From positions 352,113 to 416,112 of the forward strand of contig NZ_BBXC01000011.1 of assembly GCF_001570525.1 (NCBI RefSeq): DNA of 64,000 nt, in the 5' to 3' direction. This stretch comes from Herbidospora sakaeratensis (GTDB lineage: Bacteria > Actinomycetota > Actinomycetes > Streptosporangiales > Streptosporangiaceae). Each line of letters begins with the position of its first letter. Positions within the stretch are counted from its first letter, which is position 1. Of this stretch, positions 44,819 to 60,633 are shown one piece after another. A program made the position numbers and the translations under genes. A model generated the notes under the pieces. That model worked only from the letters and a program-made list of their open reading frames with translations, had not been told where the DNA came from and did no database searches.

Positions 44819-45479
44819 GCGCGGCCGAGGTCGCGACGACCGCCTGGAGGTGGCGGCGCATCGCCAGGGCGGCCATCTCGGCGTCGCCGTCCTTGATGGC
44901 CTCGTAGATGGCCCGGTGCTCGGCGCGGGCCTGCGCGGCCCGGCCCGGCGAGGCCGACACGGCGAGCGCCTGGTCCTGCAGGACCGCGCGCAGGTCTTCG
45001 ACCAGGCGGGAGAACAGCGGGTTGCCGGTGGCCTGCGCGATGGCGATGTGGAACCGGGCGTCGATCTTGTTGCGCTCGGCCGGGTCGTCGTTGTCCTCGA
45101 ACGCGGCGACCAGTTCGGCCAGGCCGTCGAGGTCCTCCTGGGTGCGCCGTTCGGCCGCCAGCCGGGCCGCCGGCACCTCCAGGTAGCGGCGCACCTCGTT
45201 CAGCTGCGACGGCAGGTACTGGCCGCTGAGCAGGTGCGACTGCACGCGGGTGGCGGCCACGAAGGTGCCCTTGCCGGCGTAGGACTTGGTCAGGCCCAGG
45301 GCGTTCAGGCTGTGCAGGGCCTCCCTGATGACCGAGCGGCTGACCCCGAACGACGCCGCGAGTTCCGCCTCCGATGGGAGACGGTCGTCGACCGCGAAGT
45401 GACGCGACTCGATCAGTTCGATGAGCTGCGTACGAACGTGCTCCGCCGCGCTCTTCTGCTCGACAGGGACGACCTTCAT
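44805..45479 (-). CDS. GntR-family (FadR subfamily) regulator
   Basis: About 224 aa from ATG 45479, with AAGGA about 10 nt upstream; ATG 45500 is in frame. The winged HTH is VRTQLIELIESRHFAVDDRLPSEAELAASFGVSRSVIREALHSLNALGL. The FCD ligand domain is all-helical, with the metal/acid-binding His pattern (DARFHIAIAQATGN ... ARAEHRAIYEAIKDGD). FadR-type regulators sense sugar acids and similar organic acids, which suits control of the divergent catabolic cluster. Same strand as, and just downstream of, the C45 gene. Converges on the kinase gene by 14 bp. Confidence 0.87.
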   Translation of the reverse strand: MKVVPVEQKSAAEHVRTQLIELIESRHFAVDDRLPSEAELAASFGVSRSVIREALHSLNALGLTKSYAGKGTFVAATRVQSHLLSGQYLPSQLNEVRRYLEVPAARLAAERRTQEDLDGLAELVAAFEDNDDPAERNKIDARFHIAIAQATGNPLFSRLVEDLRAVLQDQALAVSASPGRAAQARAEHRAIYEAIKDGDAEMAALAMRRHLQAVVATSAALTDS

Positions 45480-45496
45480 TCCGGGTAGGTCCTTCT

Positions 45497-46594: not shown

Positions 46595-46620
46595 GGAACA
46601 GGCCGCTCCCTCACGTGAGG

Positions 46621-46657
46621 CTGGACAACCGTCCAGGGTGCCTGGCTGTCAGACATG
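46621..46657. promoter_or_regulatory. Putative GntR sites between divergent units
   Basis: CTGGAC-N4-GTCCAG (46621-46636) and, 9 bp on, CTGTCAGACATG (46646-46657, containing TGTC-A-GACA) lie between the C45 and SDR genes. A near copy, CTGCCAGACAAG, occurs at 52150-52161 in the only other sizeable gap of the cluster. The 181-bp gap 46595-46775 otherwise shows nothing clear. Confidence 0.45.
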
Positions 46658-46775
46658 TTGATTGTGGGAGCCTCGGCCCAAAAGTGTCAACTCGCCGGTT
46701 TTTCGGGCATAACGCCTTGCCAGAACTCAAAACTCAGGTTCATGATGTCAGGCAGCCCTACAGGTTGGAGTTGTG

Positions 46776-47528
46776 GTGACATCTGTGCTGATAGCCGGCG
46801 GCGCGAGCGGCATCGGGGCCGCCACGGCGGCCCGGCTGCGCGCGGCGGGCGCCGACGTGCACGTGGCCGACCTCGACGCGGCCGGCGCGGCCGAGGTCGT
46901 CAAGGCCCTCGACGCCCACCCCGGTTCCGGGACGGCGAGCCACGTCGACCTGGCCACCGCCGACGGACCCGCCCAGGCGGTCGCCGACGCCGTCGAGGCG
47001 CACGGCCGCCTGGATGCCATCGTCTTCTGCGCGGGCCTTCTCGTCGAGACCGAATTGGCAAATTTCTCCGCGTCCGAATGGGACCGGACCATGGCGCTCA
47101 ACCTCCGGGCCCCCTTCTTCCTGACCCAGGCCGCGGCCCCCCACCTGGCGGCGTCGCCGCACGGCCGGGTGGTGCTCACGGGCTCGACCGCCGCCTTCCG
47201 GGGCGGCGGCGGGAGCTTCGCCTACGCCGCCTCCAAGGGCGGTCTCGTCGCGCTGACCAGGTCACTCGCGGTCGCGATGGGCCCCGACGGGGTCTGCGTC
47301 ACCTGCGTCTGCCCCGGCTGGATCGACACCCCGTTCAACGACCCCTACTGGCGGCGCGTGGGCGGCAAGGACGGCGGGAACGTCGCCGCGCTGGAGTCGC
47401 GCATCCCCCTGGGCGGCCAGGGCGTTCCGGACGACGTCGCCGCCGTCGTCGAGTTCCTCGTCTCCCCCGGCTCCCGTTATCTGACCGGCCAGGCCCTCGT
47501 CGTCGACGGCGGCCTGCTCGCCTCATGA
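46776..47528 (+). CDS. SDR-family oxidoreductase, first gene of catabolic cluster
   Basis: About 250 aa from GTG 46776 with TTGGAG upstream (GTG 46773 also possible). Motifs: GGASGIG (8-14), Asp in VADLDAAGA suggesting NAD, CAG in place of NAG, catalytic Ser in TGSTAAF, YAASK, PGWIDTPF. Probably oxidises a sugar, polyol or hydroxy-acid hydroxyl. The next gene starts 60 bp on, in the same direction. Confidence 0.86.
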   Translation: MTSVLIAGGASGIGAATAARLRAAGADVHVADLDAAGAAEVVKALDAHPGSGTASHVDLATADGPAQAVADAVEAHGRLDAIVFCAGLLVETELANFSASEWDRTMALNLRAPFFLTQAAAPHLAASPHGRVVLTGSTAAFRGGGGSFAYAASKGGLVALTRSLAVAMGPDGVCVTCVCPGWIDTPFNDPYWRRVGGKDGGNVAALESRIPLGGQGVPDDVAAVVEFLVSPGSRYLTGQALVVDGGLLAS

Positions 47529-47588
47529 GGCCAGGCACATGATCTCCACCAGTCCCCGGCCGTCCGCTCGCCTCGGGAGGTCGTCCAC

Positions 47589-48035
47589 ATGATCCGCACC
47601 GAATCCGTCGTCACCCTCGAACTCGCCGACCGCCTCATCAGGGCCGCCCAGGACGGCGCGGGCAAGCCGATGGCCATCGCCGTCACCGACCGGCACGGCC
47701 ACGTCGTCGCCGCCGCGCGCATGGACGGGGCCTCGCACGTCGCCCTCACCCTCGCCGTCGACAAGGCGTTCACCGCCGCCGCGTTCAACGCGCCCACCGA
47801 CGCGTGGGGCGAGGTCACCAAGCCCGGCGCGGCCGACTGGGGCCTCACCTCGGCACTCGCCGGTCGCATCGTCATCCTGGCCGGCGGGTTCCCGCTGCGG
47901 AGCGACGGTGAGCTGATCGGCGCCATCGGGGTGAGCGGCGCCGCCCCCCACGTCGACAACTCGGTCGCCCTGCACGCGCTGCGGTCGTGCGCCGAGGTCG
48001 TCGACTCCTTCGCCTCGTCCCATCCCGCCGTTTAA
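47589..48035 (+). CDS. GlcG/HbpS-like protein
   Basis: 148 aa. The DUF336 (GlcG/HbpS) fold: LELADRLIRAAQDGAGKPMAIAVTDRHGHVVAAARMDGASHVALTLAVDKAFTAAAF and a Gly-rich GELIGAIGVSG. Members bind heme or cobalamin, or accompany glycolate, propanediol and sugar-acid catabolic genes; some are enzymes acting on ketones. The role here is unknown, and position within the cluster argues for a part in catabolism. Next start is 12 bp downstream. Confidence 0.82.
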   Translation: MIRTESVVTLELADRLIRAAQDGAGKPMAIAVTDRHGHVVAAARMDGASHVALTLAVDKAFTAAAFNAPTDAWGEVTKPGAADWGLTSALAGRIVILAGGFPLRSDGELIGAIGVSGAAPHVDNSVALHALRSCAEVVDSFASSHPAV

Positions 48036-48047
48036 GGAGCCCGAAGA

Positions 48048-48473
48048 ATGTCGCTGGCCCAGCAAAAGGTCGTGGTCCTCGCCTACTCCGGATACCAGGA
48101 GCTCGACTTCTGGTATCCGGTGCTGCGCGGCCGCGAGGAGGGCGCGACCGTCCACATCGTGGCCGCCGCCGCGGGGGCGGAGAGCATCCTCGGCTACCCC
48201 GTCATCCCCGACACCGACGCCGCCGACCTCGACCCCGCCTCGGTCGACGTGATCATCGCCCCCGGCGTCGCGCCGTGGGACCTCCCCCAGCCGAGCGGCG
48301 CGCAGGTCGCCCTGGTCACCGCCGTGCACGCGGCCGGCGGGCGGGTCGCCTCGGTCGGCAACGGCGCGTCGGTGGTCGCCCAGGCCATCGGCGAGCAGGC
48401 CGAACGGGTCGTGTCCGCCGACGGCACCAACGACCTCGCCGAGTTGTTCGCCACCATCCGCAGAGGAGTCTGA
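48048..48473 (+). CDS. DJ-1/PfpI-family protein lacking the nucleophile
   Basis: 141 aa. Starts MSLAQQKVVVLAYSGYQELDFWYPVLRGREEGATV, closely like the full-length PfpI protein three genes later (YQELELWYPVLRFREDGAQV). The nucleophile elbow, ICH in that paralogue, is VGN here: Cys and His are Gly104 and Asn105. It is also about 80 residues shorter. It is probably non-catalytic, perhaps a partner subunit of the active copy. Separated from the next gene by 5 bp. Confidence 0.78.
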   Translation: MSLAQQKVVVLAYSGYQELDFWYPVLRGREEGATVHIVAAAAGAESILGYPVIPDTDAADLDPASVDVIIAPGVAPWDLPQPSGAQVALVTAVHAAGGRVASVGNGASVVAQAIGEQAERVVSADGTNDLAELFATIRRGV

Positions 48474-48478
48474 ATCCG

Positions 48479-49519
48479 ATGGAAGTCTTCAGGACCGTTC
48501 TGGGCGACGTCTCACCCGAGACGTCCGGCCGGTTCCTCACCCACGAGCACCTCCTCTACGGCTACCCGGGCGCGGAGCTCGACCACCGGACCGTGCTCGA
48601 CTACGAGAACAACGTCGCGTTCATCGCCAAGCAGGTCGCCGACGGCATGACGGACTGGGGCTTCGGCACGCTCGTCGACATGACCCCGCCGGAGGTCGGC
48701 CGCCACCCCGAGCTGATGGCCGAGGTCGCCCGCCGGACCGGCATGAACGTCATCGCGATCACCGGCTTCTTCCCCGAGCGGATGGGCGTGCCCTACTACT
48801 GGCGGCGGCAGACGGTCGAGGAGCTGACCGACTTCTTCGTGAAGGACCTCACCGAGGGCATGGTCTTCGCCTGGCAGCAGACGCCGTACAAGGCCGGCGC
48901 CATCAAGATCGCGACCGGGCAGGAGAGCGTCACGCCGCAGCCGAGCCCGATCGGGCCGAACGGCCGCCGCATCCACGAGGTCGAGGACAAGGTCATCCGG
49001 GCCGCCGGGCGGGCCTCCCGCATCGTCGGCTGCGCGATCAACACGCACACCGACCCGATGGACTACCGCGTCACCAACCCCGGCATCGAGCAGCTCGACA
49101 TCCTTGAGGAGGAGGGCGCCGACCCGGCCAAGGTGATCATCGGGCACGCCTTCGTCGAGCCCGACGAGGGCCAGCTGCACGAGATCCTCAACCGGGGCGC
49201 CAACCTCCAGCTCGACCACATCGGCATCCCGTGGCGCGTCGACACCGTCGAGGAGCTCGACGAGCGCATGGCCAACGCGTTCGTGGGCCTGATCAACGAG
49301 GGCTTCACCAGCCAGCTCGTGCTCTCGTACGACCGCTGGTTCTACAACCCGCGCTCCGACGTCACGGAGTCGGACCCGCAGCTCGCCAACGAGCGCGTCG
49401 ACCTCGGTTACATGTGGACCTCGTTCATCCCGCGCCTGAAGAGCAAGGGCGTGACCGACGCGCAGATCGACGCGATCACCCGCGACAACGCCGCCCGCAT
49501 CTTCTCCATCAAGGTCTGA
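48479..49519 (+). CDS. Phosphotriesterase-family metal hydrolase (probable lactonase)
   Basis: 346 aa from ATG 48479. The complete binuclear site of the PTE family is present: His22 and His24 (THEH), Lys143 (AGAIKIATG, the carboxylated lysine), His190 (INTHTD), His223 (IIGHAF) and Asp285 (LSYDRW). Most bacterial members hydrolyse lactones, not organophosphates. In this cluster a sugar lactone made by one of the dehydrogenases is the logical substrate. Next gene 8 bp downstream. Confidence 0.88.
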   Translation: MEVFRTVLGDVSPETSGRFLTHEHLLYGYPGAELDHRTVLDYENNVAFIAKQVADGMTDWGFGTLVDMTPPEVGRHPELMAEVARRTGMNVIAITGFFPERMGVPYYWRRQTVEELTDFFVKDLTEGMVFAWQQTPYKAGAIKIATGQESVTPQPSPIGPNGRRIHEVEDKVIRAAGRASRIVGCAINTHTDPMDYRVTNPGIEQLDILEEEGADPAKVIIGHAFVEPDEGQLHEILNRGANLQLDHIGIPWRVDTVEELDERMANAFVGLINEGFTSQLVLSYDRWFYNPRSDVTESDPQLANERVDLGYMWTSFIPRLKSKGVTDAQIDAITRDNAARIFSIKV

Positions 49520-49527
49520 GGAACAAC

Positions 49528-50193
49528 GTGGAACTCTCCCAGGCACGCATCGTCGTGCTGGTCGAAAACCTCTACCAGGAGCTGGAGCTCTGGTATCCGG
49601 TCCTGCGTTTCCGCGAGGACGGCGCGCAGGTGCGGGTGGTGGGCCCGTCGACGGACGAGGTGTACGCCAGCAAGATCGGCTACCCCGCCCGCGCCGACCT
49701 CACCGTGGCCGACGTCGACCTCGACTCGGTCGACGCCGTGATCATCCCGGGCGGCTTCTCGCCCGAGTACCTGCGGCGCAACCCCGCCATGGTGAAGCTG
49801 GTCAGGGACGCCGACGCCGGCAACCTGGTCGTGGCGGCCATCTGCCACGCGGGCTGGATGCTGGCCACGGCCGGGATCGTGGCCGGGCGCGACGCGACGT
49901 GCGTGGCGACCATCAAGGACGACGTCATCAACGCCGGCGCGAACTTCAGGGACGAACCGGTCGTCGTGGACGGCAACCTGATCACCTCCCGGCTGCCCAA
50001 CGACCTGCCGGAGTTCTGCGCGGCGATCAAGGACGCGCTCGAAGCGCGGGAGCCGGCCAAGGGCGGCCCGCTCCCGGCCCTCAACGAGCCGCCGAACTCC
50101 TCCCCCGCCTACACGGCGACCGCGATCATGAAGAACCGCGCGGCGGGCCCCGGCTCGTCCAACTACCGGGCCTACGCGGTCCTGGACGCGTGA
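49528..50193 (+). CDS. DJ-1/PfpI-family protein with intact Cys
   Basis: 221 aa from GTG 49528 with GAGGAAC upstream. The nucleophile elbow AAICHAGW has Cys106-His107, and ELELWYP supplies the acidic partner. Families include proteases, amidases, glyoxalase III and hydratases (isonitrile hydratase). The C-terminal 45 residues (AKGGPLPALNEPPNSSPAYTA...) are a Pro-rich extension. Paired with the Cys-less paralogue at 48048; the PTE gene sits between them. Confidence 0.84.
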   Translation: MELSQARIVVLVENLYQELELWYPVLRFREDGAQVRVVGPSTDEVYASKIGYPARADLTVADVDLDSVDAVIIPGGFSPEYLRRNPAMVKLVRDADAGNLVVAAICHAGWMLATAGIVAGRDATCVATIKDDVINAGANFRDEPVVVDGNLITSRLPNDLPEFCAAIKDALEAREPAKGGPLPALNEPPNSSPAYTATAIMKNRAAGPGSSNYRAYAVLDA

Positions 50194-50195
50194 CC

Positions 50196-51131
50196 ATGCG
50201 CGTCGACGTCCATCACCACGCGATCTTCCCGGCCTACGCCGAGGTGCTGCGGGGGCTCGGGATCGGGGCCCAGCCGGGCGTCGGCCTGCCCGGATGGTCG
50301 GTCGGCGCGTCGCTCTCGATGATGGACGACCTGGGCCTCGACCTGGCGGTGTTGTCCGCCGGGTCGCCCGGGTTCTTCTTCGACGGCGACCAGGCGCTCG
50401 CCCGGGAGCTCTGCGAGAGCACCAACGCCGACCTGGCCGCGACGGTCGCCGCGCACCCCACCCGGTTCCGGGCGTTCGTCGCGGTGCCGCTGCCGTCGGT
50501 GGGCGACGCGCTGCACACGATCGAGCGGTGGGCCGGTCATGACGCGTTCGTCGGCGTCGGCCTGCTGACCAACTACGCGGGCCGGTATCTGGGCGATCCG
50601 GCCTTCGAGCCCGTGCTGGCCGAGCTCGACCGGCGGCAGGCGGTGGTGCACGTCCACCCCCAGCTGCCGGTGCACTACCCGGCCGCCGAGCTCCAGCTGC
50701 GGCCGTCGCTGATCGAGTACGTCTTCGACACCACCCGGGCCGTCGTCAACCTGCTGCTGAACGGCGCCCACGACCGTTATCCGGGCATCACCTGGATCTT
50801 CTCCCATTGCGGCGGCACCGCCCCCTACCTGGCCGGACGTCTCGCCATCGCCGAACCGCTGCCGGAGCTGGAGCAGGTCGGCGAGGGCGGCGTCCACCGG
50901 GCGCTCCGGCGGTTCCACTACGACTTCGCCCTGGCCACCACGCCCTACGCGCTCGGCTCGGCGCTGAAGCTGGCCGGTCCGGAACGGTTCCTGATCGGCT
51001 CGGACTTCCCGTTCGTCGACGAGAAGACGGTCGCGGCCTGCCTGCGCGAAGCGGCCGACCTGCTGGGCCCAGACCTGACCACCGTCGCCGAGAACAATCC
51101 CGCCCGGCTCTTCCCGAACCTGAAGGGGTGA
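50196..51131 (+). CDS. Amidohydrolase (ACMSD/dihydroxybenzoate decarboxylase-like)
   Basis: 311 aa from ATG 50196 (upstream GTG 50190 possible). Amidohydrolase-2 motifs: DVHHHA at the start, VHVHPQLP, IFSHCGG and IGSDFPF, giving the His-x-His, His, His, Asp metal set. Family members decarboxylate aromatic acids or hydrolyse lactones (for example 2-pyrone-4,6-dicarboxylate or fuconolactone hydrolases). A second lactonase or a decarboxylase step is plausible. It ends 4 bp before the esterase gene. Confidence 0.84.
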   Translation: MRVDVHHHAIFPAYAEVLRGLGIGAQPGVGLPGWSVGASLSMMDDLGLDLAVLSAGSPGFFFDGDQALARELCESTNADLAATVAAHPTRFRAFVAVPLPSVGDALHTIERWAGHDAFVGVGLLTNYAGRYLGDPAFEPVLAELDRRQAVVHVHPQLPVHYPAAELQLRPSLIEYVFDTTRAVVNLLLNGAHDRYPGITWIFSHCGGTAPYLAGRLAIAEPLPELEQVGEGGVHRALRRFHYDFALATTPYALGSALKLAGPERFLIGSDFPFVDEKTVAACLREAADLLGPDLTTVAENNPARLFPNLKG

Positions 51132-51135
51132 GACA

Positions 51136-52089
51136 GTGCCGCAGTTCGACCTCCCGCTCCCGCAGCTGCGCGAATACCGCTACCCGGAACCGGAACCGGC
51201 CGACTTCGACGCCTTCTGGGCCCGCACCCTCGCCGAACAGCCGTCCGTGGACGTCACCTTCGAGCCCCACGACGCGGGCCTGACCACGGTCGACACCTGG
51301 GACGTCACGTTCACCGGCTACGGCGGCGACCCCATCAAGGCGTGGCTGCTGCTGCCCGCGAACAGGACCGGCCCCGTCCCGACGGCGGTCGAATATCTCG
51401 GGTACGGCTCGGGGCGCGGCCTCCCGATCGAGTCCCTGGCCTATGTGTCGTCGGGTTTCGGCCACTTCGTCATGGACACCCGGGGTCAGGGCAGCTCGTG
51501 GCGGGCCGGCGACACCGGCGACCCGTCGGCGACTGGCCCGGCCGTGCCCGGCTATATGACACGGGGCATCCTCGACCCGGACGACTACTACTACCGCCGC
51601 CTCTACACCGACGCCGTGAGAGCCGTCGACGCGGTCAGGGAGCACCCCGGCGTGGCCGAGGTGGCCGTCACCGGCAGATCCCAGGGCGGCGCGTTGTCGC
51701 TGGTCGTGGCCGGTCTGCGCGACGACGTCGCCGGAGCGATCCCGCACGTGCCGTTCCTGTCGGCGTTCCGCCGGGGCACCGCGATCACCGAACGGGAGCC
51801 CTACGCCGAGATCGTGCGCTGGTGCTCGATCCACCGCACGAAGTGGGAGCGGGCGTTCGCCACGCTCGCCTACTTCGACGCCACCGCCTTCGCGGCGCGG
51901 GCGACCTGCCGTGGTTCGTTCTCGGTCGCGCTGATGGACGGCGTCTGCCCGCCTTCCACCGTGTACGCCGCCTTCAACGCCTACCAGGGCCCGAAGGACA
52001 TCACGGTGTGGCCGTACAACAACCACGAGGGCGGCGGCCCCGAGGACCAGCTCAGAACCGTCCGGGTGCTCCGCGAACTCTTCCGATAA
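51136..52089 (+). CDS. CE7 acetylxylan esterase/deacetylase
   Basis: 317 aa from GTG 51136, no signal peptide, so cytoplasmic. Alpha/beta hydrolase of the CE7 family: RGQGSSW motif at 116-122, nucleophile Ser182 (GRSQGG), Asp267 (LMDGVCPPS) and His296 (NNHEGG). These enzymes deacetylate imported xylo-oligosaccharides, other acetylated sugars or cephalosporin C. Being cytoplasmic and next to an importer gene set, it suggests that the transported compound carries acetyl esters. Confidence 0.88.
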   Translation: MPQFDLPLPQLREYRYPEPEPADFDAFWARTLAEQPSVDVTFEPHDAGLTTVDTWDVTFTGYGGDPIKAWLLLPANRTGPVPTAVEYLGYGSGRGLPIESLAYVSSGFGHFVMDTRGQGSSWRAGDTGDPSATGPAVPGYMTRGILDPDDYYYRRLYTDAVRAVDAVREHPGVAEVAVTGRSQGGALSLVVAGLRDDVAGAIPHVPFLSAFRRGTAITEREPYAEIVRWCSIHRTKWERAFATLAYFDATAFAARATCRGSFSVALMDGVCPPSTVYAAFNAYQGPKDITVWPYNNHEGGGPEDQLRTVRVLRELFR

Positions 52090-52119
52090 CACCAAATCGT
52101 GACAAACGGAGCCTTGTTC

Positions 52120-52161
52120 GGCTCTGTAACACGAGGCAACATTTCAAACCTGCCAGACAAG
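52120..52161 (+). promoter_or_regulatory. Internal control region of catabolic cluster
   Basis: In the 108-bp gap 52090-52197, GAGCC-N6-GGCTC (about 52120-52135) can form a hairpin. CTGCCAGACAAG (52150-52161), matching 10 of 12 bases of the site at 46646-46657, lies within CCTGC-N7-GCAGG. An internal promoter or attenuator for the downstream genes is likely. Confidence 0.4.
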
Positions 52162-52197
52162 CAGGCAGCCTGACCGGCTGCTGGGAAAGGGGTCGGC

Positions 52198-53214
52198 GTG
52201 AAATCAGCTCTGCTGTACGGCCACAACGACCTGCGTGTAGAGAACCGGCCCGACCCGAAGGCGGGCGAGGGCCAGGCCGTCATCAGGATTCACGCCTCGG
52301 GCGTCTGCCCCAGCGACATCCGCAGCTACACCGCCGCGACGGCCGCCAAGCGCGACCCGTGGACGCCCGGCCACGAGATCGCCGGCGTCGTGACGGAACT
52401 CGGCGGCGGCGACACCGGAGACCTCCAGGTCGGCGACCGGGTCGCGGTCGACTGGCGCGGCGTCTGCGGCCGCTGCCACCAGTGCGTCAGGGGCGCGGCC
52501 AACTTCTGCGAGAACCTGATCAAGTACCCGATCGCCGGTTTCGCCGAGGCGACCGTCATGCCGGTGGAGCAGCTCAGCAAGCTCCCCGACGGCGTCGGCT
52601 TCGAGTCGGCCAGCTTCGCCGAACCGCTGGCCTGCGTCGTCAACGCCCACCGCGCGCTGCCGCTGCCGCTGACCGAGAACGTGCTGGTCGTCGGGGCCGG
52701 CCCGATCGGCCTGCTGCACACCCAGGTCGCCCGGGCGCGGGGCGGCCGGGTCATCGTCACCGACCTGAAGGCCGACCGGCTGAAGGTCGCCCAGCAACTC
52801 GGCGCGCACGACGTCGCCGAGGCCGCGAACCAGCGGGAGGCGGTGCTCGACCTCACCGGCGGACGCGGCGCCGACGTCGTGATCGTCACGGTCGGCGTCC
52901 CGGCGGTCATCGAGGCCGCGTTCGGCCTGGTGGCCAAGAACGGCGTGGTCAACCTGTTCGCCGGCACCCACCCGAAGGGGGCCATCGCCCTCAACCCCGA
53001 CGTGCCCCACTACGACCAGGTCTCCGTCAACGGCAGCCACGACTTCATCCCCAACGACTTCGCGACCGCCCTGCGCCTGCTCCGGTTCGGCCACGTCGAC
53101 GTCGCCCCGCTGATCAGCCACCGGTTCCCGCTCGACGCGGTCGCCGAGGCCTTCGAAACGACGAAACAGCAACTGGGCCTGAAGTCCCTGGTTGTCGCAG
53201 AAGGAGAGAAATGA
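52198..53214 (+). CDS. Zinc-dependent medium-chain dehydrogenase 1
   Basis: 338 aa from GTG 52198. Zinc MDR: GVCPSDIR (catalytic Cys), GHEIAGVV (His-Glu), and a structural zinc loop CGRCHQCVRGAANFCEN with four Cys. Rossmann motif VVGAGPIGLLHTQ; Asp in IVTDLKADR favours NAD. Related to sorbitol and L-threonine dehydrogenases. It probably oxidises a polyol or sugar. Overlaps the aldolase start by 4 bp (ATGA). Confidence 0.87.
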   Translation: MKSALLYGHNDLRVENRPDPKAGEGQAVIRIHASGVCPSDIRSYTAATAAKRDPWTPGHEIAGVVTELGGGDTGDLQVGDRVAVDWRGVCGRCHQCVRGAANFCENLIKYPIAGFAEATVMPVEQLSKLPDGVGFESASFAEPLACVVNAHRALPLPLTENVLVVGAGPIGLLHTQVARARGGRVIVTDLKADRLKVAQQLGAHDVAEAANQREAVLDLTGGRGADVVIVTVGVPAVIEAAFGLVAKNGVVNLFAGTHPKGAIALNPDVPHYDQVSVNGSHDFIPNDFATALRLLRFGHVDVAPLISHRFPLDAVAEAFETTKQQLGLKSLVVAEGEK

Positions 53215-53984
53215 GCACCCACTGGCCCCGCCGTCGTATGCACCACGTCTTCGCCCCCGACGGGCGGGCCGTGATCGCCGCCATGGACGCCGGGATCACC
53301 AAGGGCGTCGCCCCCGGCCTTGAGCGGGGCCGCGCCGCGGTCAAGCGCATCGTCGACGGCGGCGTCGACGCGATCCTGGCCACCATCGGCCTGGCCCGCG
53401 CGGCGGCCGACGAGCTCGGCGGCACCGGCCTCATCCTGGCCCTCGACAGCGAGATCCCCTCGGCGCGGTACGGCGTCGAGCAGGCCGTCCGGTGGGGGGC
53501 CGACGCGCTGGAGCTCAAGGTGTTCCCGGGCAACCCCGAGGTCACCAAGATGGGCGAGCTGCGCGAACTCTGCGCCGAGGGCGACAAGTGGGGCATGCCG
53601 GTGATGGCCGAGCCGATCCCCGTCGGCTTCAAGGCGCTGGAGGCCCACACGCTGGCCAACATCGCCCACGGCGCGCGGGTGTCGGCCGAGGCGGGCGCCG
53701 ACTTCGTGAAGGCCCAGTACACCGGCACCCCCGAGGAGTACCGCGAGGTCGTCGAGGGCTGCTTGGTCCCGGTGCTCGCGCTCGGCGGCCCGATGAAGCC
53801 GACCCCGCTGCACGCGCTGCAGATGGCCCACGACGCGATCCAGGCCGGGGCGAGCGGCGTCGTCTACGGCCGCAACATCGTCGAAGCCGAACGCCCCGAC
53901 CGCATGGTCGCGGCCCTGGTCGAGATCGTGCACGGCGGCGCGAGCGTCGACGTGGCCGCCAAGCACCTCAACATCCCTCTCTGA
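53211..53984 (+). CDS. Class I aldolase (DhnA/LsrF/DeoC superfamily)
   Basis: 257 aa from ATG 53211 with AAGGAG upstream. TIM barrel: AVIAAMDAGI (strand 1 Asp), ILALDSEIPS, LELKVFPGNP, PVMAEPIP, then ADFVKAQYTG with the Schiff-base Lys167, and LALGGP (phosphate-binding turn). It would cleave a phosphorylated ketose or sugar acid, matching the FGGY kinase two genes on. LsrF-type thiolases share this fold, so the chemistry is not fixed. Confidence 0.82.
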   Translation: MSTHWPRRRMHHVFAPDGRAVIAAMDAGITKGVAPGLERGRAAVKRIVDGGVDAILATIGLARAAADELGGTGLILALDSEIPSARYGVEQAVRWGADALELKVFPGNPEVTKMGELRELCAEGDKWGMPVMAEPIPVGFKALEAHTLANIAHGARVSAEAGADFVKAQYTGTPEEYREVVEGCLVPVLALGGPMKPTPLHALQMAHDAIQAGASGVVYGRNIVEAERPDRMVAALVEIVHGGASVDVAAKHLNIPL

Positions 53985-53999
53985 GAAGGAGCCGACGAG

Positions 54000-55043
54000 A
54001 TGATGCGTGCCGCCGTCTTCCACGGCGGCCGGGACATCCGGATCGAGGAGATGCCGATCCCGCTGCCCGGCCCCCGTGAGGTGCTGGTGCGGGTGGGCGC
54101 GGCCGGGGTCTGCGGCAGCGACGTGCTGGCCTTCCGCGGCCAGGGCCCGTGGCAGCACAACCCCGAGAAGCCCGGCCGGGACGGTCACGAGCTGGCCGGC
54201 GAGATCGCCGCGCTCGGTTCGGAGGTCACCGGCCTGGCCGTCGGCCAGCGGGTCGCCGTCGAACCGAAGCACCTCATCGCCTGCGGCCAGTGCCCGCCCT
54301 GCCGCAACGGCCGGTCGCACCTGTGCCGCCGACGGGGCTACGTCGGCGACGTCCACGTGACCAGCGAGGGCTTCGCCGAATACGACCTGGCCCCCGCCGA
54401 GCGTGTCCACGTGTTGCCGGACGCGGTCTCCCTCGCGGCGGGGGCCGTCCTCGACTGCTACGCGTGCGGCGTGCACACCCACAACCTGGTGCGGACGCCC
54501 GCCGGGAGCAGGGCGGTCGTGCTGGGCAGCGGCACGATGGGCCTGACCATGGGCCAGGTGCTGCGCGCCCACGGGATCGAGGTCCTGCTCACCGGCACCG
54601 CCAAGGAGTTCCTCGACCTGGCGCTGGAGGCGGGCGCCGCCGACGAGGTGGCCTTCGCCCACGACGCGCGCGGAAAGATCGAGGACTTCACCCAGGGCAA
54701 GGGCGCCGACCTGGTCGTCGACGCCGTCGCCATCCCGAACGTGACGCTCCAGCAGGCGGTCGAGTCGGTCGCCGAGGGCTCCCCGATCTGCGTGCTCGGC
54801 GTCTACCCGACCCCGCCGCGTGTCGAGCCCCACGTCGCCTACGTGAAGGAGGCGTCCATCCACTGGTCCAACAGCTACGGCCCCGGCGCGTACGCCGAGG
54901 CGCTGCGGCTGGTGGCCGAGGGCCGGGTCGCGGCCGATCCGCTCATCACCCACCGGTTCCCGCTCGACCGGATCGTCGAGGCGTTCACCGCCGCCGACGA
55001 GAAGGAGCGGTCGCTGGCCATGAAGGTCCTGATCGAGCCCTAG
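54000..55043 (+). CDS. Zinc-dependent medium-chain dehydrogenase 2
   Basis: 347 aa. GVCGSDVLAF (catalytic Cys), GHELAGEI (His-Glu), and a structural zinc loop CGQCPPCRNGRSHLC. Cofactor motif VLGSGTMGLTMGQ; the residue after strand 2 is not the usual Asp (LLTGTAKEF), so cofactor preference is unclear. Paralogous to the dehydrogenase at 52198 but clearly different, so two oxidation steps, or an epimerising oxidation-reduction, are possible. Next gene starts 15 bp later. Confidence 0.87.
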   Translation: MMRAAVFHGGRDIRIEEMPIPLPGPREVLVRVGAAGVCGSDVLAFRGQGPWQHNPEKPGRDGHELAGEIAALGSEVTGLAVGQRVAVEPKHLIACGQCPPCRNGRSHLCRRRGYVGDVHVTSEGFAEYDLAPAERVHVLPDAVSLAAGAVLDCYACGVHTHNLVRTPAGSRAVVLGSGTMGLTMGQVLRAHGIEVLLTGTAKEFLDLALEAGAADEVAFAHDARGKIEDFTQGKGADLVVDAVAIPNVTLQQAVESVAEGSPICVLGVYPTPPRVEPHVAYVKEASIHWSNSYGPGAYAEALRLVAEGRVAADPLITHRFPLDRIVEAFTAADEKERSLAMKVLIEP

Positions 55044-55058
55044 AAGGAGGTGACCGGC

Positions 55059-56369
55059 ATGCACGTCCTGGCGATCGACCAGGGGTCGAGCGGCGCGAAG
55101 GCCGCCGTCGTCGACGGCGAGGGCCGCATCGTCGCCATGACCTCGCGGCGCACGCCGGTCGACCACCCCGAGACGACCGCCGTGCAGGCCGACCCCGAGA
55201 TGTGGTGGCGGGCGCTGGTCTGGTGCGTCTCCCGGCTGCCGCTCGAAAACGTACGAGCGGTCGCGATCTCCGGGTTCATGCACACGGTCGTGCCGGTCAC
55301 CGACGAGGGCAAGGTCACCGGGCCCGCGCTGCTGTGGCCCGACCAGCGTCCGGCCGGGCCGAGCGCGGCCGACCGGGTGGCGTGGTGGGCCGGGCACGAC
55401 CCGCTGGCCCTGCTGACCAGGTGGTACCTGCCGGTCAAGGACTTCCTGCGGATGCGGCTCACCGGCGAGTTCGGCACCGACCGCTACGAGGCGAGCGGCA
55501 CCGGCTTCCTGCGCGACGGCGGCTGGTCTCCGGCGGTCGCCTACGACGCCGGCGTCTCCGTGGCGAAACTCCCGCCGATCGGCGAACCGCTCGACATCGC
55601 CGGGACGGTCACGAAGGAGGCCGCCGCCGCGACCGGGCTCGCCGAAGGCACCCCCGTCGTCATGGGCACCGGCGACTGGATGGCCACCCTGCTCGGCGCG
55701 TCGGCCGTGCTGCCGCACAGGGTCTGCGTCTATCTCGGCACGGCCGGCGCGGTCGGCGGCTTCGCCTCCGCCGAATCCGCCGCCGCGCTGACCGAGCCCC
55801 GGTGTTTCGCCGCCGCGACCTCGACGGGGTCGGCGCTCGACTGGATCGGCGGGCTGACCGGCAGAGGAGCCCCCGAAGCGGTCGCGGCGGCGGAGTCGGC
55901 GCCGCCCGGATCACGCGGGGTGGTGTTCCTGCCCCACCTGATGGGTGAACGCGGCCTGGGTCACGACCCCTCGGCGCGGGGGTCGGTGCACGGTCTGACC
56001 CTGGCCCATGGCGCCCCCGATCTGGCGAGAGCCGTCATCGAAGGAACCTCCTACTGGCTGAGAGTGATCGCCGGCGCGGCGCTGGACCAGCACGGCGAGG
56101 CGGAACTGGTCGCGGTCGGCGGCGGCGCCCGCAGCGACCTCTGGTTGCGCGTCCTCGCGGCCGTGCTGAAGCGCGACCTGACGGTCCCCGAGACGACCGA
56201 GGCCGGGCTCCTCGGCACGGCCATGATCGCCCACCGGGCGCTGACCGGTCAGGCGTCCCACGAGCGGTGGACACGGGTCGCCAGGACCGTGCCCGCCGAT
56301 CCGAACCTGGCGAACGTGTACGAACCGCTCTTCGAGGAGTTCCTCCACCTGGAGGAACGCCACCGGTAG
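55059..56369 (+). CDS. FGGY-family carbohydrate kinase
   Basis: 436 aa from ATG 55059 with the ideal ribosome site AAGGAGGTGA. FGGY motifs: AIDQGSSGAKAAVVD (phosphate 1), SGFMHTVVP, WPDQRP, GTGDWMA, YLGTAG and AVGGGARSDLWLRVLA. Closest in style to xylulokinase or gluconate kinase, but the short length and W at the usual sugar-contact position leave the substrate open. It phosphorylates the imported or oxidised sugar before aldol cleavage. Confidence 0.88.
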   Translation: MHVLAIDQGSSGAKAAVVDGEGRIVAMTSRRTPVDHPETTAVQADPEMWWRALVWCVSRLPLENVRAVAISGFMHTVVPVTDEGKVTGPALLWPDQRPAGPSAADRVAWWAGHDPLALLTRWYLPVKDFLRMRLTGEFGTDRYEASGTGFLRDGGWSPAVAYDAGVSVAKLPPIGEPLDIAGTVTKEAAAATGLAEGTPVVMGTGDWMATLLGASAVLPHRVCVYLGTAGAVGGFASAESAAALTEPRCFAAATSTGSALDWIGGLTGRGAPEAVAAAESAPPGSRGVVFLPHLMGERGLGHDPSARGSVHGLTLAHGAPDLARAVIEGTSYWLRVIAGAALDQHGEAELVAVGGGARSDLWLRVLAAVLKRDLTVPETTEAGLLGTAMIAHRALTGQASHERWTRVARTVPADPNLANVYEPLFEEFLHLEERHR

Positions 56370-56452
56370 CCCTCGGGCTGCCCGACCCAGAACCGATGCG
56401 CACGGGGGGCGCTCATACACCGCTTTCGCGACCGCCATTGCCAGGAGAAGAA

Positions 56453-57760
56453 ATGCAACGACCGTGGAACAGCGCACTCAAGGTCATCACCGCCACGTCG
56501 GCGGCGGCCGCACTCATGCTCGCCTCGGCCTGCGGCGCGGACGACGCCGCGGAGGGCAACGCCACCGGTGAGGTCACCGGCGCCATCGACGTGTGGATGG
56601 GCGACCCGATCGGCGCCGCCCAGCAGCCGACGATCGTCCAGCTCGCCAAGGACTACGAGACCGCCCACCCCGGCACCAAGGTGAACCTCCGGTTCCTCGG
56701 CGCCGACGCGCACAAGACCTACCTGACCAGCATCGCCGGCGGCACCGTGCCCTGCGTCGCGCTCATCGGCAACACGTGGAGCCCGGAGTTCGCCGGCCTC
56801 CAGGCCCTGGAGCCGATCGCGCAGGACCCGGCGTCGATGAAGGGCGTCTACACCCAGAGCATGATCGACTCGACCGTGCTCGACGGCGTCTCCTACGCGG
56901 TGCCCTACGACACCGGGGTGCGGGCGCTCATCTACCGCAAGGACCTGTTCGACAAGGCCGGCCTGGCGGCCCCCAAGACCTGGGACGACGTGCTGAGCTC
57001 GGCGACCAGGGTGCAGCAGGACAACCCCGGCGTCAACGGCTTCGGCATCGTCGGCGGCAACCAGTGGTACTGGCTGCCGATGATCTGGAACTGGGGCGGC
57101 GAGATCGCCACCCAGGAGGGCGGCGCCTGGAAGGCCAAGGTCGACTCGCCCGAGGCGGTCGCGGCCTTCACCTTCTACGCCGACCTGCTGACCAAGCACA
57201 AGCTGGCCCCCGAAGGGGCGGCCACCTGGCAGGGCGCCGACGCGTCGAAGGCGTTCGCGCTCGGCCAGATCGGCATGATGGTCGGCGGCTCGTGGGACCT
57301 GAAGACGATCCTCGCGCAGAACCCCGGGATGGAGCAGCAGCTCGGCACCGCGCCGCTGCCCGCCGGTCCCGGCGGCAACAACGACACCTTCGCGGGCGGC
57401 AGCAACCTGGCCATCTTCAAGGGGTGTGACAACAAGGCGACCGCCAAGAGCTTCGTCGACTTCCTGATGAAGACCGACAACCTCGTCCCGGTCACCACCA
57501 AGATCGGTCTCCTCCCGGCGACCGTCGACGCCCTGGAGAAGGAGCGCACCAGCGGTTCGTTCTCCACCCCGCTGCTGCGGGCCTACGCCGAGCAGGCGCC
57601 GAACACGCGGTCGATCCCGCCGGTGGCCACGTGGGGCAAGGTCGAGGGCACCGGGGCCATCGTCAACGCGATGCAGGCGATCATGAACGGGCAGAAGACG
57701 CCCGACGCGGCCATGCAGGAACTGGCCTCGCAGATTGACGCCGCGATCGGACAACAATGA
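56453..57760 (+). CDS. ABC sugar-binding lipoprotein
   Basis: 435 aa from ATG 56453 with AGGAGAAG upstream. The lipobox LASAC places the lipidated Cys at 27. CUT1-type binding protein: LRFLGADAHKTYLTSIAGG, YAVPYDTGVRALIYRKDLFDKAGL, PKTWDDV, FALGQIGMMVGGSWDL, AGGSNLAIFKGC. Captures a sugar, oligosaccharide or glycoside outside the membrane. It overlaps the first permease gene by 4 bp. Confidence 0.92.
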   Translation: MQRPWNSALKVITATSAAAALMLASACGADDAAEGNATGEVTGAIDVWMGDPIGAAQQPTIVQLAKDYETAHPGTKVNLRFLGADAHKTYLTSIAGGTVPCVALIGNTWSPEFAGLQALEPIAQDPASMKGVYTQSMIDSTVLDGVSYAVPYDTGVRALIYRKDLFDKAGLAAPKTWDDVLSSATRVQQDNPGVNGFGIVGGNQWYWLPMIWNWGGEIATQEGGAWKAKVDSPEAVAAFTFYADLLTKHKLAPEGAATWQGADASKAFALGQIGMMVGGSWDLKTILAQNPGMEQQLGTAPLPAGPGGNNDTFAGGSNLAIFKGCDNKATAKSFVDFLMKTDNLVPVTTKIGLLPATVDALEKERTSGSFSTPLLRAYAEQAPNTRSIPPVATWGKVEGTGAIVNAMQAIMNGQKTPDAAMQELASQIDAAIGQQ

Positions 57761-58689
57761 CCTCTACCACCACCGGGCGGGCGGGCCACTCGGTCGCGCC
57801 CGCCCGGGCAGGGCTGAGATGGGACCGCTTCGCACTGCCCAGCCTGCTGCTCGCCCCTCTCCTGGCCGTGATCCTGGGAGTGGTCGGCTACCCCATCGTC
57901 CGGACCGTCTGGCTCTCGTTCCACGAGGGCGAATACCTGATGACCGGGGCCTTCAACGGCGTCGACAACTACACGGAGATCTTCGGCGACCCCTACTTCC
58001 TCGCCGCGCTCCTGCGCACGACGGTCTTCGCGGTCGTCTGCGTGGTCACCACGCTGCTGATCAGCCTGGCCATCGCGCTGGTCCTGGACGCCGGGTCGTG
58101 GGCGGCCAGGATCGTCACGGTGGTCGTGCTGCTGCCCTGGGCGATGCCCCGGGTGGCCAGCGGCATCATCTGGAAGTGGATGTTCAACGACCAGTACGGC
58201 ATCGCCAACTGGTTGCTGGTCTCCCTCGGGTTCGACTCGTTCAGGGGCTACGCCTGGTTCAACGACGGCTTCGCCTCGCTGGTCGCCATCACGATCGCCG
58301 TGGTCTGGCACTCGGTGCCGTTCATCGCGATCTCGATGCTGGCCGGGCTGCGCGCGACGCGGGGTGAGGTGCTGGAGGCGGCCCGGGTCGACGGCGCGGG
58401 CTTCTACCAGCAGCTGATCAGGGTGCGGCTGCCGATGATGAAGCCGCTGCTGACGATCCTCGGCGTGATGTCGACGATCTTCGCGTACCAGTCGTTCGAC
58501 CACTTCCTGGTGATGACCACCCCGCCCGGCGGGCCCAGCCACAGCACCGAGGTGCTGTCGCTGCTGACCTGGCTGCAGGCGTTCACCGTGCTCGACCAGG
58601 GGGTCGCGGCGGCGATGGCCGTCGTCACGTTCGTGCTGCTGGCCGGGATCACCGCCGTCTACGTGAGGTTGTCGAAGGAGGGCGCATGA
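57757..58689 (+). CDS. ABC sugar permease (UgpA/MalF type)
   Basis: 310 aa, six predicted membrane helices. The EAA loop EVLEAARVDGAGFYQQLIRVRLPMMKPL (about 205-232) contacts the ATPase. N-terminal cytoplasmic tail of about 25 residues. Forms a heterodimer with the next gene product; starts overlap by 4 bp. Confidence 0.93.
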   Translation: MTSTTTGRAGHSVAPARAGLRWDRFALPSLLLAPLLAVILGVVGYPIVRTVWLSFHEGEYLMTGAFNGVDNYTEIFGDPYFLAALLRTTVFAVVCVVTTLLISLAIALVLDAGSWAARIVTVVVLLPWAMPRVASGIIWKWMFNDQYGIANWLLVSLGFDSFRGYAWFNDGFASLVAITIAVVWHSVPFIAISMLAGLRATRGEVLEAARVDGAGFYQQLIRVRLPMMKPLLTILGVMSTIFAYQSFDHFLVMTTPPGGPSHSTEVLSLLTWLQAFTVLDQGVAAAMAVVTFVLLAGITAVYVRLSKEGA

Positions 58690-59501
58690 CCCGGAGATTG
58701 ATCGTCTATCCGGCGATGGTGCTCATCTGCGTGGCGAGCCTGTTCCCGTTCTTCTGGATGATCGTCACCTCGCTCAAGCCGGACACCGAGATCTTCACGG
58801 TGTCTCCGCAGTTCATCCCGCACGAGCCGATCCTGTCGCGCTACACCGAGTTGTTCTCCGGGGCGATCCCGCGCCAGTTCCTCAACTCGCTGCTGGTCGC
58901 CGGGGTCACCACGGTCGTCACCGGGCTGATCGCGCTGCTGGCGGGCTACGCGCTGGCGCGGTTCAACGTGCCGATGAAGCGCTACCTGCTGATCGTGATC
59001 CTGTCGATCCAGATGCTGCCGCAGACGGTGCTGGTCATCCCGCTGTTCGTGGTGCTGCGCAACACCGACCTGCTCGGCACCTACCAGGGGCTCGTGTTGT
59101 CGCACCTGGCGCTGACGGTGGGGCTGGCGACGTACATGCTGCGCAGTTTCTTCATGGACATCCCGGTCTCCCTGGAGGAGTCGGCGATGGTCGACGGCGC
59201 CTCGCGGATGAAGGCCGTGCGGCTCGTCGTGTTCCCGCTCGTCTGGCCGGGGCTGGCGGCCAGTTCGATCTACGGGTTCATCACGTCGTGGAACGAGCTG
59301 ATGTTCTCGGCGACGTACATGCAGCAGTCGTCGCGGGAGACGCTCCCGGTCGCGCTGCAGCAGTTCTTCTCCAGCTACTACTCCGACTGGGGCGGCGTCA
59401 TGGCGGCCAGCGTGATCTTCACGATCCCGGTCGTCGTGTTCTTCCTGCTGGTCCAGAAGCGCCTCATGCAGGGCATGGTCGCGGGCGCGGTCAAGGGTTG
59501 A
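58686..59501 (+). CDS. ABC sugar permease (UgpE/MalG type)
   Basis: 271 aa, six membrane helices, EAA loop SLEESAMVDGASRMKAVRLVVFPLVWPGL (about 163-191). No ABC ATPase gene is present in the cluster. In actinomycetes a single shared ATPase (MsiK/MalK type) commonly serves many CUT1 importers, so it is probably encoded elsewhere. The next gene starts 16 bp after the stop. Confidence 0.93.
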   Translation: MTRRLIVYPAMVLICVASLFPFFWMIVTSLKPDTEIFTVSPQFIPHEPILSRYTELFSGAIPRQFLNSLLVAGVTTVVTGLIALLAGYALARFNVPMKRYLLIVILSIQMLPQTVLVIPLFVVLRNTDLLGTYQGLVLSHLALTVGLATYMLRSFFMDIPVSLEESAMVDGASRMKAVRLVVFPLVWPGLAASSIYGFITSWNELMFSATYMQQSSRETLPVALQQFFSSYYSDWGGVMAASVIFTIPVVVFFLLVQKRLMQGMVAGAVKG

Positions 59502-59517
59502 GAAAGGGTTGTGTCTG

Positions 59518-60633
59518 ATGTTGAAGCTCGGGGTCCTCGGGGTCGGGGCGATCGCCACGGTCGACTACGGGGTGCTGCCCAACCTGCACCACATCGCCGA
59601 CAAGGTGGAGCTGGTCGCGCTGTGCGACCCGGTGGAGGAGCGCACCGCCGCCGCCGCGAAGAGGTTCGGCGCGCGGGAGACCTACGCCACGCTCGACGAG
59701 ATGCTCGACGCGTCGGACGTCGACCTGGTGCTCAACCTGACCCCCATCCCGGCCCACGGCGCGACCTCGCTCAAGATCCTGGAGGCGGGCAAGCACCTGG
59801 CGACCGAGAAGCCGCTGGCCACCACGATGGAGGAGGCCGACGCCCTGATCGAGCTGGCCGCCGCGAGCGGCCTGAAGATCGTCTGCTCGCCGCCCAACAT
59901 GCTCTACCCGAGCCGCATCGAGGCGGCCCGGCTGATCCGCGAGGGCGTCATCGGCAAGGTCGCGTTCGCCAAGGTCAGGGCCAGCCACGGCGGCCCGGCC
60001 TCGATGATGAACTGGCCGACCGACCCGACGTGGTTCTACCAGGAGGGCTCCGGCCCGCTGTTCGACGTCGGCGTCTACGGCATCCACGAGATGCTCGGCC
60101 TGCTCGGCCCGGCCAGGCGGGTGTCGGCGTTCTCGGGCGTCACCGAGCCGACCCGGGTGGTGCGCTCCGGCCCGTACGCCGGCAAGGAGATCACCGTCAC
60201 CACCGACGACAACACCCTGATCATGCTCGACTTCGGCGGCGGCACCTTCGCGGTCGTCGACGGCACCTTCAACGTGAACGCCGCCAAGGGCCCCCGGCTG
60301 GAGGTCTTCGGGCGTGCGGGCACCCTGAACCTGCCCAACAACCTGCCGGTCAACGGCGGCCGGGGCATCGACCTGTTCCTGCTGGAGGCCGCCGCCGGGC
60401 TGAGCGGCTGGGTCGACCTCGACCTCGCCCACCTGGAACCGGCCCAGCAGCGGGTCGACAAGCTGCGCCGGGCGCTGCTCGTCGACCATCTCGCCGACGT
60501 GGTGAACGGCACCGCCGAGGAGGTCATGGGCGGCGACGTCGCCCGCCACGCGCTGGAGATCATGCTGAAGGCGCACGAGTCGGCCCGGACCGGTCAGGCC
60601 CTGGAGCTCACGACCACCTTCAACTGGTCGTGA
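59518..60633 (+). CDS. Gfo/Idh/MocA-family oxidoreductase
   Basis: 371 aa from ATG 59518. Rossmann start LGVLGVGAIATVDYGVLPN, the EKP motif (TEKPLATTMEEADALIELA) and a C-terminal beta-sheet domain with FDVGVYGIHEML. Such enzymes oxidise or reduce sugars, inositols and glycosides, often giving lactones or 3-keto sugars. It ends the rightward cluster and overlaps the convergent PP2C gene by 14 bp. A lactone product would feed the PTE-family hydrolase. Confidence 0.9.
   Translation: MLKLGVLGVGAIATVDYGVLPNLHHIADKVELVALCDPVEERTAAAAKRFGARETYATLDEMLDASDVDLVLNLTPIPAHGATSLKILEAGKHLATEKPLATTMEEADALIELAAASGLKIVCSPPNMLYPSRIEAARLIREGVIGKVAFAKVRASHGGPASMMNWPTDPTWFYQEGSGPLFDVGVYGIHEMLGLLGPARRVSAFSGVTEPTRVVRSGPYAGKEITVTTDDNTLIMLDFGGGTFAVVDGTFNVNAAKGPRLEVFGRAGTLNLPNNLPVNGGRGIDLFLLEAAAGLSGWVDLDLAHLEPAQQRVDKLRRALLVDHLADVVNGTAEEVMGGDVARHALEIMLKAHESARTGQALELTTTFNWS

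Follow-up and report, generated by a model that had tools for sequence, protein, structure and literature searches.

A conserved catabolic gene set in Herbidospora sakaeratensis with a constant PfpI1-PTE-PfpI2 centre and an exchangeable sugar half

The 8.6 Mb genome of the actinomycete Herbidospora sakaeratensis carries, in a stretch of 64,000 nucleotides (hereafter the window; contig NZ_BBXC01000011.1, positions 352,113 to 416,112), a cluster of 15 co-directional genes at 46776-60633 together with divergent genes for a GntR regulator and a C45 hydrolase, all of them intact. The 15 genes encode, in order, an SDR oxidoreductase, a GlcG/HbpS-like protein, the DJ-1/PfpI protein PfpI1, a phosphotriesterase-like hydrolase (PTE), PfpI2, an Amidohydro_2 protein (AH2), a CE7 esterase, zinc dehydrogenase 1, an aldolase, zinc dehydrogenase 2, an FGGY kinase, a CUT1 binding protein, two permeases and a Gfo/Idh/MocA dehydrogenase (GFO). 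Comparison of sequences indicates that this is a real, conserved catabolic set in which the sugar half is exchangeable and the PfpI genes are the constant part. The reading favoured here, with a probability of roughly 0.5, is that of a GntR-controlled, two-layer catabolic regulon for a sugar-acid-type compound, in keeping with the occurrence of PfpI1, PTE and PfpI2 in two phyla, the shared operator-like sites, the 3-oxo-tetronate kinase of Streptomyces CBMA29, the lactonase fold matches of PTE and the natural fusion of the two PfpI proteins in Alcaligenaceae SAGV5.

Conservation of the cluster and its constant centre

With PTE as the query on a genome contig collection, 20 loci were recovered. 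The stretch from GntR to the second permease has the same order in nine of these (six Herbidospora, three Acrocarpospora), with PTE of the Herbidospora species being 97-99% identical to that of the window; these nine loci end at the second permease such that the position of GFO lies outside them. All 17 genes are present in genome G142 and also in G324, a member of another family of the class, in which PTE is 68-69% and the second-half proteins are 38-76% identical. The order in G324 is rearranged, with the binding protein, permeases and GFO lying on the other side of GntR and C45 and with CE7 and AH2 swapped. Between PfpI1 and PTE this genome has two open reading frames (L038:10497-13581) that share the same length and the same start and look transposase-like by eye. 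The original prediction for this DNA, made from its letters, had named conservation of the neighbourhood in related genomes as a check, and this conservation was found in Herbidospora, Acrocarpospora, G142 and G324. A kinase gene in the left flank was detected in the six Herbidospora loci and missed in those of Acrocarpospora, and the SpoIIE gene in the right flank was not detected in G142, bounding the conserved unit at about 44805 and 60633. Against H. mongoliensis the dN/dS ratio was 0.08-0.37 for all 16 genes compared (GFO lies outside that locus), which with the gene order kept in nine relatives indicates, at the level of sequence, conservation beyond chance.

At E 1e-30 PTE matches were found in 12 of 200 genomes of the family, 11 of them at 86% identity or more (own genome included), while PTE (E 1e-60) and the aldolase (E 1e-45) were found in the same three of 394 genomes of the class, again including its own. 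In further Proteobacteria PTE was found at E 1e-60 in 2/268, 1/300 and 1/147 genomes, counting the centre genome each time. A PubMed Central (PMC) literature search, largely without full text, found no description of this gene set, in agreement with the earlier statement that its exact composition could not be matched to a described pathway.

PfpI1 and PfpI2 flank PTE in all eight actinomycete loci of the scan outside Herbidospora and Acrocarpospora (Pseudonocardiales and Jatrophihabitans metagenome-assembled genomes, Streptomyces CBMA29 and four Dactylosporangium), which overturns the original view of the PfpI genes as inserts. In Proteobacteria the PfpI pair adjoins PTE in SAGV5 (L032) and L033 and is one gene (GntR) away in both copies carried by G647, with L034 being cut at PTE. 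Around this centre the neighbours change. In the CBMA29 module (L025), GntR, C45 and a cupin are joined by a 3-oxo-tetronate kinase, which scores 445.7 bits against a cut-off of 350, and by a class II aldolase that falls just short of the OtnC cut-off (242 vs 250); a protein resembling Asp/Glu racemases and one of the Amidohydro_1 family are encoded there too. In D. fulvum, the one Dactylosporangium of the four in which the upstream stretch was read, GntR (63%) and C45 (56%) point away from CE7-AH2, after which come a binding protein, permeases, a cupin, a ROK kinase, PfpI1, PTE, PfpI2 and an SDR. The SAGV5 module holds GntR, M20, M28, a TctC binding protein and AH2, with C45 not detected in that locus. 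G647, of the same family as SAGV5, has two copies of GntR, PTE, PfpI1, PfpI2, C45 and AH2 (L049, L050) with ABC transporter genes nearby; for one copy an M28 peptidase was seen by Pfam, and the binding protein is PotD-related at 41 bits, far under the PotD model cut-off of 582. GntR homologues adjoining PTE/PfpI genes in other genomes are 47-100% identical.

The FGGY/aldolase half was not detected in the loci covered of Dactylosporangium, Streptomyces, Pseudonocardiales and Proteobacteria. Whole-genome searches of eight such genomes, several being incomplete metagenome-assembled genomes, found no aldolase in six and 32-34% identical proteins elsewhere in two. The comparison of loci thus indicates that the centre stays fixed while the transporter and the lower pathway differ between lineages, GntR and C45 being frequent but not universal. 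What remains constant in the sequences compared is PfpI1-PTE-PfpI2, commonly accompanied by GntR, C45 and Amidohydro_2, and the FGGY/aldolase half appears as an accessory, exchangeable part.

Plasmids yielded no close relatives. PTE matched 23 plasmid records, all below 60% identity, with no PfpI annotated in the context of two rhizobial matches (about 29-35%) in the incomplete gene tables of PLSDB; in Sinorhizobium chiapasense (L042) the distant plasmid PTE (about 29%) has genes for an M81 peptidase, a biotin-carboxylase-like protein and a hydantoinase in its vicinity. Searches with PfpI2 (4 records), the aldolase (2), C45 (39) and CE7 (8) found nothing above 60% identity, and the module was in none of four plasmid contexts read (two C45, one aldolase without annotation, one CE7). 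Likewise, the distant PTE of G035 (33-37%) had no PfpI within its 20 kb.

The PfpI pair and the PTE-like hydrolase

The original prediction of two PfpI proteins holds as to their presence, but PfpI1 lacks the catalytic Cys. Where PfpI2 has ICHAG, PfpI1 has VGNGAS, and the elbow Cys is missing from PfpI1 in 16 of 16 loci (among these rows L024 has an internal stop, L038 an altered end and L032 is the fused protein) with ICHAG, and thus the Cys-His pair, being retained by PfpI2 in all 16. PfpI1 scores 25.3 against TIGR01382, for which the cut-off is 139.05, and in most alignment rows lacks a stretch of about 28 residues, while sharing with PfpI2 the N-terminal YQELE-type motif. The tail of PfpI2, KNRAAGPGSSNYRAYAVL, in the C-terminal part of window 49528-50193 and outside the PfpI domain, is conserved in actinomycetes and recognisable in Proteobacteria. 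In SAGV5, PfpI1 and PfpI2 are naturally fused into one protein of 368 residues (L032:8614-9720).

In Pseudomonas aeruginosa PfpI, a methylglyoxalase, one protomer contributes Cys112, His113 and Glu22 to the active site and the other contributes Asp86 (PMC11987610). Since that site spans protomers, it is conceivable that the site of the active PfpI is shaped by a partner that has no Cys. It is tentatively proposed that an obligate DJ-1-family heteromer of inactive PfpI1 and active PfpI2 works with the PTE-like hydrolase on one intermediate, which would amount to an undescribed catabolic chemistry kept across phyla as transporter and lower pathway were exchanged. With a Cys-less and an active-type PfpI constantly paired, and joined into a single protein in one lineage, the module provides a clear example of a DJ-1-family pseudoenzyme that probably plays a part in catalysis.

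Enzymes of the PTE/PLL group hold a binuclear metal centre through the ligands H-x-H, K, H, H and D. All six, as originally predicted, are present in PTE (H22/H24, K143, H190, H223, D285), with K143, H190, H223 and D285 invariant in an alignment of 20 rows and the HxH nearly so, one row being truncated there. The AlphaFold2 (AF2) model of PTE (mean predicted local distance difference score, pLDDT, 86.8; predicted template modelling score, pTM, 0.89) has a Geobacillus kaustophilus lactonase as its top Foldseek match, followed closely by phosphotriesterase variants. A role like that of a lactonase is the most straightforward guess from this model, with amidase or esterase activity also possible, and this PTE subfamily may gain a metabolic function from the module.

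Operator-like sites and regulation

Sites with an inverted CTGY-N3-RCAG core are common to the C45-SDR gap and the one separating the halves (52090-52197). When a matrix was made from 15 sites of other lineages, none from Herbidospora, the sites at 52150, 46646 and 46745 ranked 1, 2 and 4 of 63,990 window positions. With a leave-one-lineage-out matrix 46646 ranked 1, 52150 ranked 2 and 46745 ranked 3, an identical G324 site being in the training set in this last case. The training sites were picked by eye after the Herbidospora gaps had been viewed. The 52150 site is the same or nearly so in the gap of the six Herbidospora, Acrocarpospora and G142 sequences compared and was not seen in the G324 gap.

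Leave-one-lineage-out scans placed the top site in a promoter gap of the module in nine of ten loci tested. Perfect CTGTCWGACAG palindromes precede the binding protein gene in four Dactylosporangium loci and also lie between C45 and CE7 in D. fulvum, with one upstream of the 3-oxo-tetronate kinase domain in CBMA29. Both copies of this palindrome in the 8.5 Mb CBMA29 genome fall in the module, as do the single copy in D. siamense and two of four in D. fulvum. It is absent genome-wide from Herbidospora, SAGV5 and G647, where the module sites are imperfect. CTGYCWGACA is not enriched in the Herbidospora genome, where it has 11 sites, three belonging to the cluster, whereas its reversed control has 22, and the numbers of CTGTCWGACAG are close to those of reversed controls elsewhere (G558, 2 v 2; G559, 1 v 2; G560, 4 v 1; G324, 1 v 1), so that only the placing of the sites is informative. 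The original prediction had named separate regulation of the two halves, by different substrates, as a result that would count against it; the same operator-like site occurs at both, and from this placing both halves are probably one regulon. A defined regulator, a candidate operator and a gene set present in two phyla make this nutrient pathway directly testable, with the inducer screenable by one reporter.

Gene families, proposed pathway and known systems

The families and places of the 15 genes and the divergent pair (Table 1), first proposed from the letters, were confirmed by Pfam and NCBIfam profile scans, with gene starts and catalytic motifs checked by script; the motifs are presumed to carry their usual meanings.

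Table 1. Genes and operator-like sites of the cluster (window coordinates)
Feature	Position	Strand	Basis
FadR-type GntR regulator, GntR and FCD domains	44805..45527	-	PF07729, PF00392
C45 autoproteolytic acyltransferase/hydrolase	45497..46594	-	NF040521 269.2 bits, cut-off 85
Operator-like site CTGTCAGACAT, C45 side of divergent gap	46646..46656	.	
Operator-like site ATGTCAGGCAG, just upstream of SDR	46745..46755	.	
SDR oxidoreductase	46776..47528	+	PF13561; YAASK motif
GlcG/HbpS-like protein, accessory	47589..48035	+	PF03928
PfpI1, DJ-1/PfpI protein without catalytic Cys	48048..48473	+	PF01965 38.7 bits
PTE-like hydrolase (phosphotriesterase/lactonase superfamily)	48479..49519	+	PF02126 156 bits
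PfpI2, active-type PfpI with ICHAG and conserved C-terminal tail	49528..50193	+	TIGR01382 148.7 bits, cut-off 139.05
Amidohydrolase family 2 (AH2)	50196..51131	+	PF04909
CE7 (AXE1) esterase	51136..52089	+	PF05448 320 bits
Operator-like site CTGCCAGACAA, between the halves	52150..52160	.	
Zinc-dependent dehydrogenase 1	52198..53214	+	PF08240/PF00107
DhnA/LsrF-type class I aldolase	53211..53984	+	PF01791; NF005556 190.5 bits, under cut-off 241
Zinc-dependent dehydrogenase 2	54000..55043	+	Pfam
FGGY kinase, short divergent form	55050..56369	+	PF00370/PF02782; XylB 243 bits, under cut-off 380
CUT1 solute-binding lipoprotein	56453..57760	+	PF01547
ABC permease 1	57757..58689	+	PF00528
ABC permease 2	58686..59501	+	PF00528
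Gfo/Idh/MocA dehydrogenase (GFO)	59509..60633	+	PF01408/PF22725; EKP motif

The regulator is of the FadR type by its GntR helix-turn-helix and FCD domain, and C45 has the nucleophile Cys (Cys111) of C45 NTN hydrolases, with Glu110-Cys111 invariant in nine of nine alignment rows. In AH2, H6, H8, H154, H204 and D270 are invariant in eight rows. CE7 esterases are marked by the motifs RGQ, GxSQG and HE, found here as RGQ, GRSQGG and HEGG, with no signal peptide discernible by eye. The aldolase is of the DeoC/LacD type (a relative of ADH synthase and LsrF) with no model reaching its equivalog cut-off, and the Lys in its DFVK motif is taken to be the candidate Schiff-base Lys. Both zinc dehydrogenases keep the zinc Cys/His residues and the FGGY kinase carries GTGDW; compared across genera, this kinase is among the least conserved cluster proteins, being 56-62% identical to its counterparts in Acrocarpospora and G142 and 38% identical to that of G324. 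The GlcG/HbpS-like gene was detected by tblastn in the Herbidospora, Acrocarpospora, G142 and G324 loci alone. Of the CUT1 importer originally predicted, the binding protein and two permeases were found but a Pfam scan of the 17 cluster genes found no ABC ATPase, a shared ATPase such as MsiK being the norm in actinomycetes. Genes for a SpoIIE phosphatase with a GAF domain and an RsbA/STAS-type anti-sigma protein (window 60620-62877) converge on the cluster end.

In the proposed regulon a sugar-acid-type compound would be imported and handled by an upper layer, present across phyla, of the PTE-like lactonase and PfpI1/PfpI2 as one heteromeric enzyme, often with C45 and Amidohydro_2 and in several actinomycetes with the CE7 esterase and SDR too. 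C45 and CE7 would strip acyl groups, PTE would open a lactone and the PfpI pair would deal with a dicarbonyl or keto intermediate. In the Herbidospora lower layer GFO and the zinc dehydrogenases would oxidise the freed polyol or acid, with the FGGY kinase phosphorylating it and the class I aldolase cleaving it to a triose phosphate. In other lineages the lower layer may consist of a ROK protein and cupin, or of the 3-oxo-tetronate kinase and class II aldolase, the latter tail pointing to a four-carbon sugar acid as a possible intermediate in the Streptomyces form. The reaction order of the original prediction (deacetylation, oxidation, ring opening, phosphorylation, aldol cleavage) is plausible. 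We infer a sugar substrate from the kinases, aldolases and CUT1 importer, with the C45, M20 and M28 hydrolases suggesting an amide or acyl group too.

Several observations weigh against this regulon. Outside the Streptomyces tail no enzyme reaches a substrate-specific cut-off, and the binding proteins differ by lineage (CUT1, PotD-related, TctC) such that the substrate may differ as well. Neither GntR nor C45 was detected in L024, L026, L027 and L033, three of which are contigs below 10 kb, and the stricter operator pattern is absent from the same four, most being short contigs. In L043, the exception among the scanned loci, two outside sites outscore the site before the binding-protein gene, and the sole genomic CTGTCWGACAG of G324 lies outside the cluster (0 of 1 in the module). 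The end of PfpI1 in G324, beside the two transposase-like genes, is altered, and the model of the fused PfpI1-PfpI2 (pTM 0.55) has low inter-domain confidence and does not establish packing. An amide would suit the C45, M20 and M28 hydrolases no less than a sugar ester would. No sugar kinase was seen in the subset of proteobacterial genes scanned in L032 and G647, where the core comes with M28 (in L032 also M20) and with TctC-type or PotD-related binding proteins, and the annotation of Streptomyces cadmiisoli places a C45 relative (45%) next to an ABC transporter of the spermidine/putrescine type. These last points would suit a core that degrades a non-sugar amide or natural-product-like compound, with C45, M20, M28, PTE and Amidohydro_2 being amidases, lactonases or decarboxylases and the Herbidospora sugar half processing a glycosyl or polyol moiety of some larger conjugate. 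This account is considered somewhat unlikely, with a CUT1 binding protein and permeases accompanying the core in Herbidospora, Acrocarpospora, G142, G324 and Dactylosporangium and kinases with an aldolase or cupin recurring in actinomycetes.

The absence of the second half from other core-bearing lineages could also mean that the cluster is made up of two adjacent but independent pathways (46776-52089 and 52198-60633), sharing the regulator only via local operator duplication. This is improbable given the operator-like site common to both gaps, the presence of both halves in G324 despite its rearranged order and diverged second-half proteins, and the occurrence of the aldolase in the same three of 394 genomes as PTE. 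The methylglyoxalase activity of P. aeruginosa PfpI (PMC11987610) would agree with detoxification rather than carbon catabolism, with PfpI2 a glyoxalase or deglycase and PTE and C45 xenobiotic hydrolases, but importer genes, kinase and aldolase stand in the same conserved unit and make this very improbable.

A number of known pathways were compared with the cluster. For sialic acid the GntR regulator is nearest to NanR at 123.6 bits (cut-off 260) and the D. fulvum ROK protein nearest to NanK-type at 111.8 (cut-off 283), with no sialic acid lyase among the cluster families. Beyond the binding-protein gene of G324 there is a BNR-repeat (sialidase-like) protein (L043:3441-5309) and then, by eye, a LacI-type regulator. 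Levoglucosan dehydrogenases were rejected with all scores under cut-off, and the autoinducer 2 (AI-2) system of LsrK and LsrF with the FGGY kinase scoring 83 against the AI-2 kinase vs 243 for XylB and the aldolase 111 against LsrF vs 163-190 against ADH synthase models. The inositol pathway with IolG and IolM is of the Thermotoga type; the cluster likewise has Gfo/Idh/MocA and zinc dehydrogenases of these kinds, but far under the equivalog cut-offs (78.8 v 355; 156.9 and 161 v 450). The OtnK/OtnC pathway for 3-oxo-tetronate, a four-carbon acid sugar, is present in the CBMA29 version with its aldolase just under cut-off, whereas the window cluster has no SBD_N/NBD_C kinase or class II aldolase and has FGGY and a class I aldolase instead.

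FadR-type operators have the consensus NyGTNxACNy (PMC8206213) and sites of this kind are present in the cluster gaps. The footprinted site of LhgR, TTGTCTGACAA, also FadR-type and given in the same paper, has the core TGTCWGACA in common with the cluster sites. As the motif fits the consensus and resembles the LhgR site, it is general for the FadR subfamily and not exclusive to the cluster GntR, and the target genes of LhgR differ from those in Herbidospora. PTE shares its fold (TM 0.82/0.87 for 3tn5) and six metal ligands with the G. kaustophilus lactonase GkaP but is 31% identical to it, has other gene neighbours and carries an extra stretch after the Lys ligand that is absent from three distant PTEs aligned. 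The tandem protein DJ-1D of Arabidopsis (4ofw) is the top Foldseek match of the fused PfpI1-PfpI2 model, at 19% identity and a whole-length TM of only 0.47/0.45. The methylglyoxalase of P. aeruginosa (PMC11987610) has the Cys-His pair and N-terminal Glu region found likewise in PfpI2, with the cluster protein differing in its constant Cys-less partner, its conserved C-terminal tail and the fusion of the pair in SAGV5.

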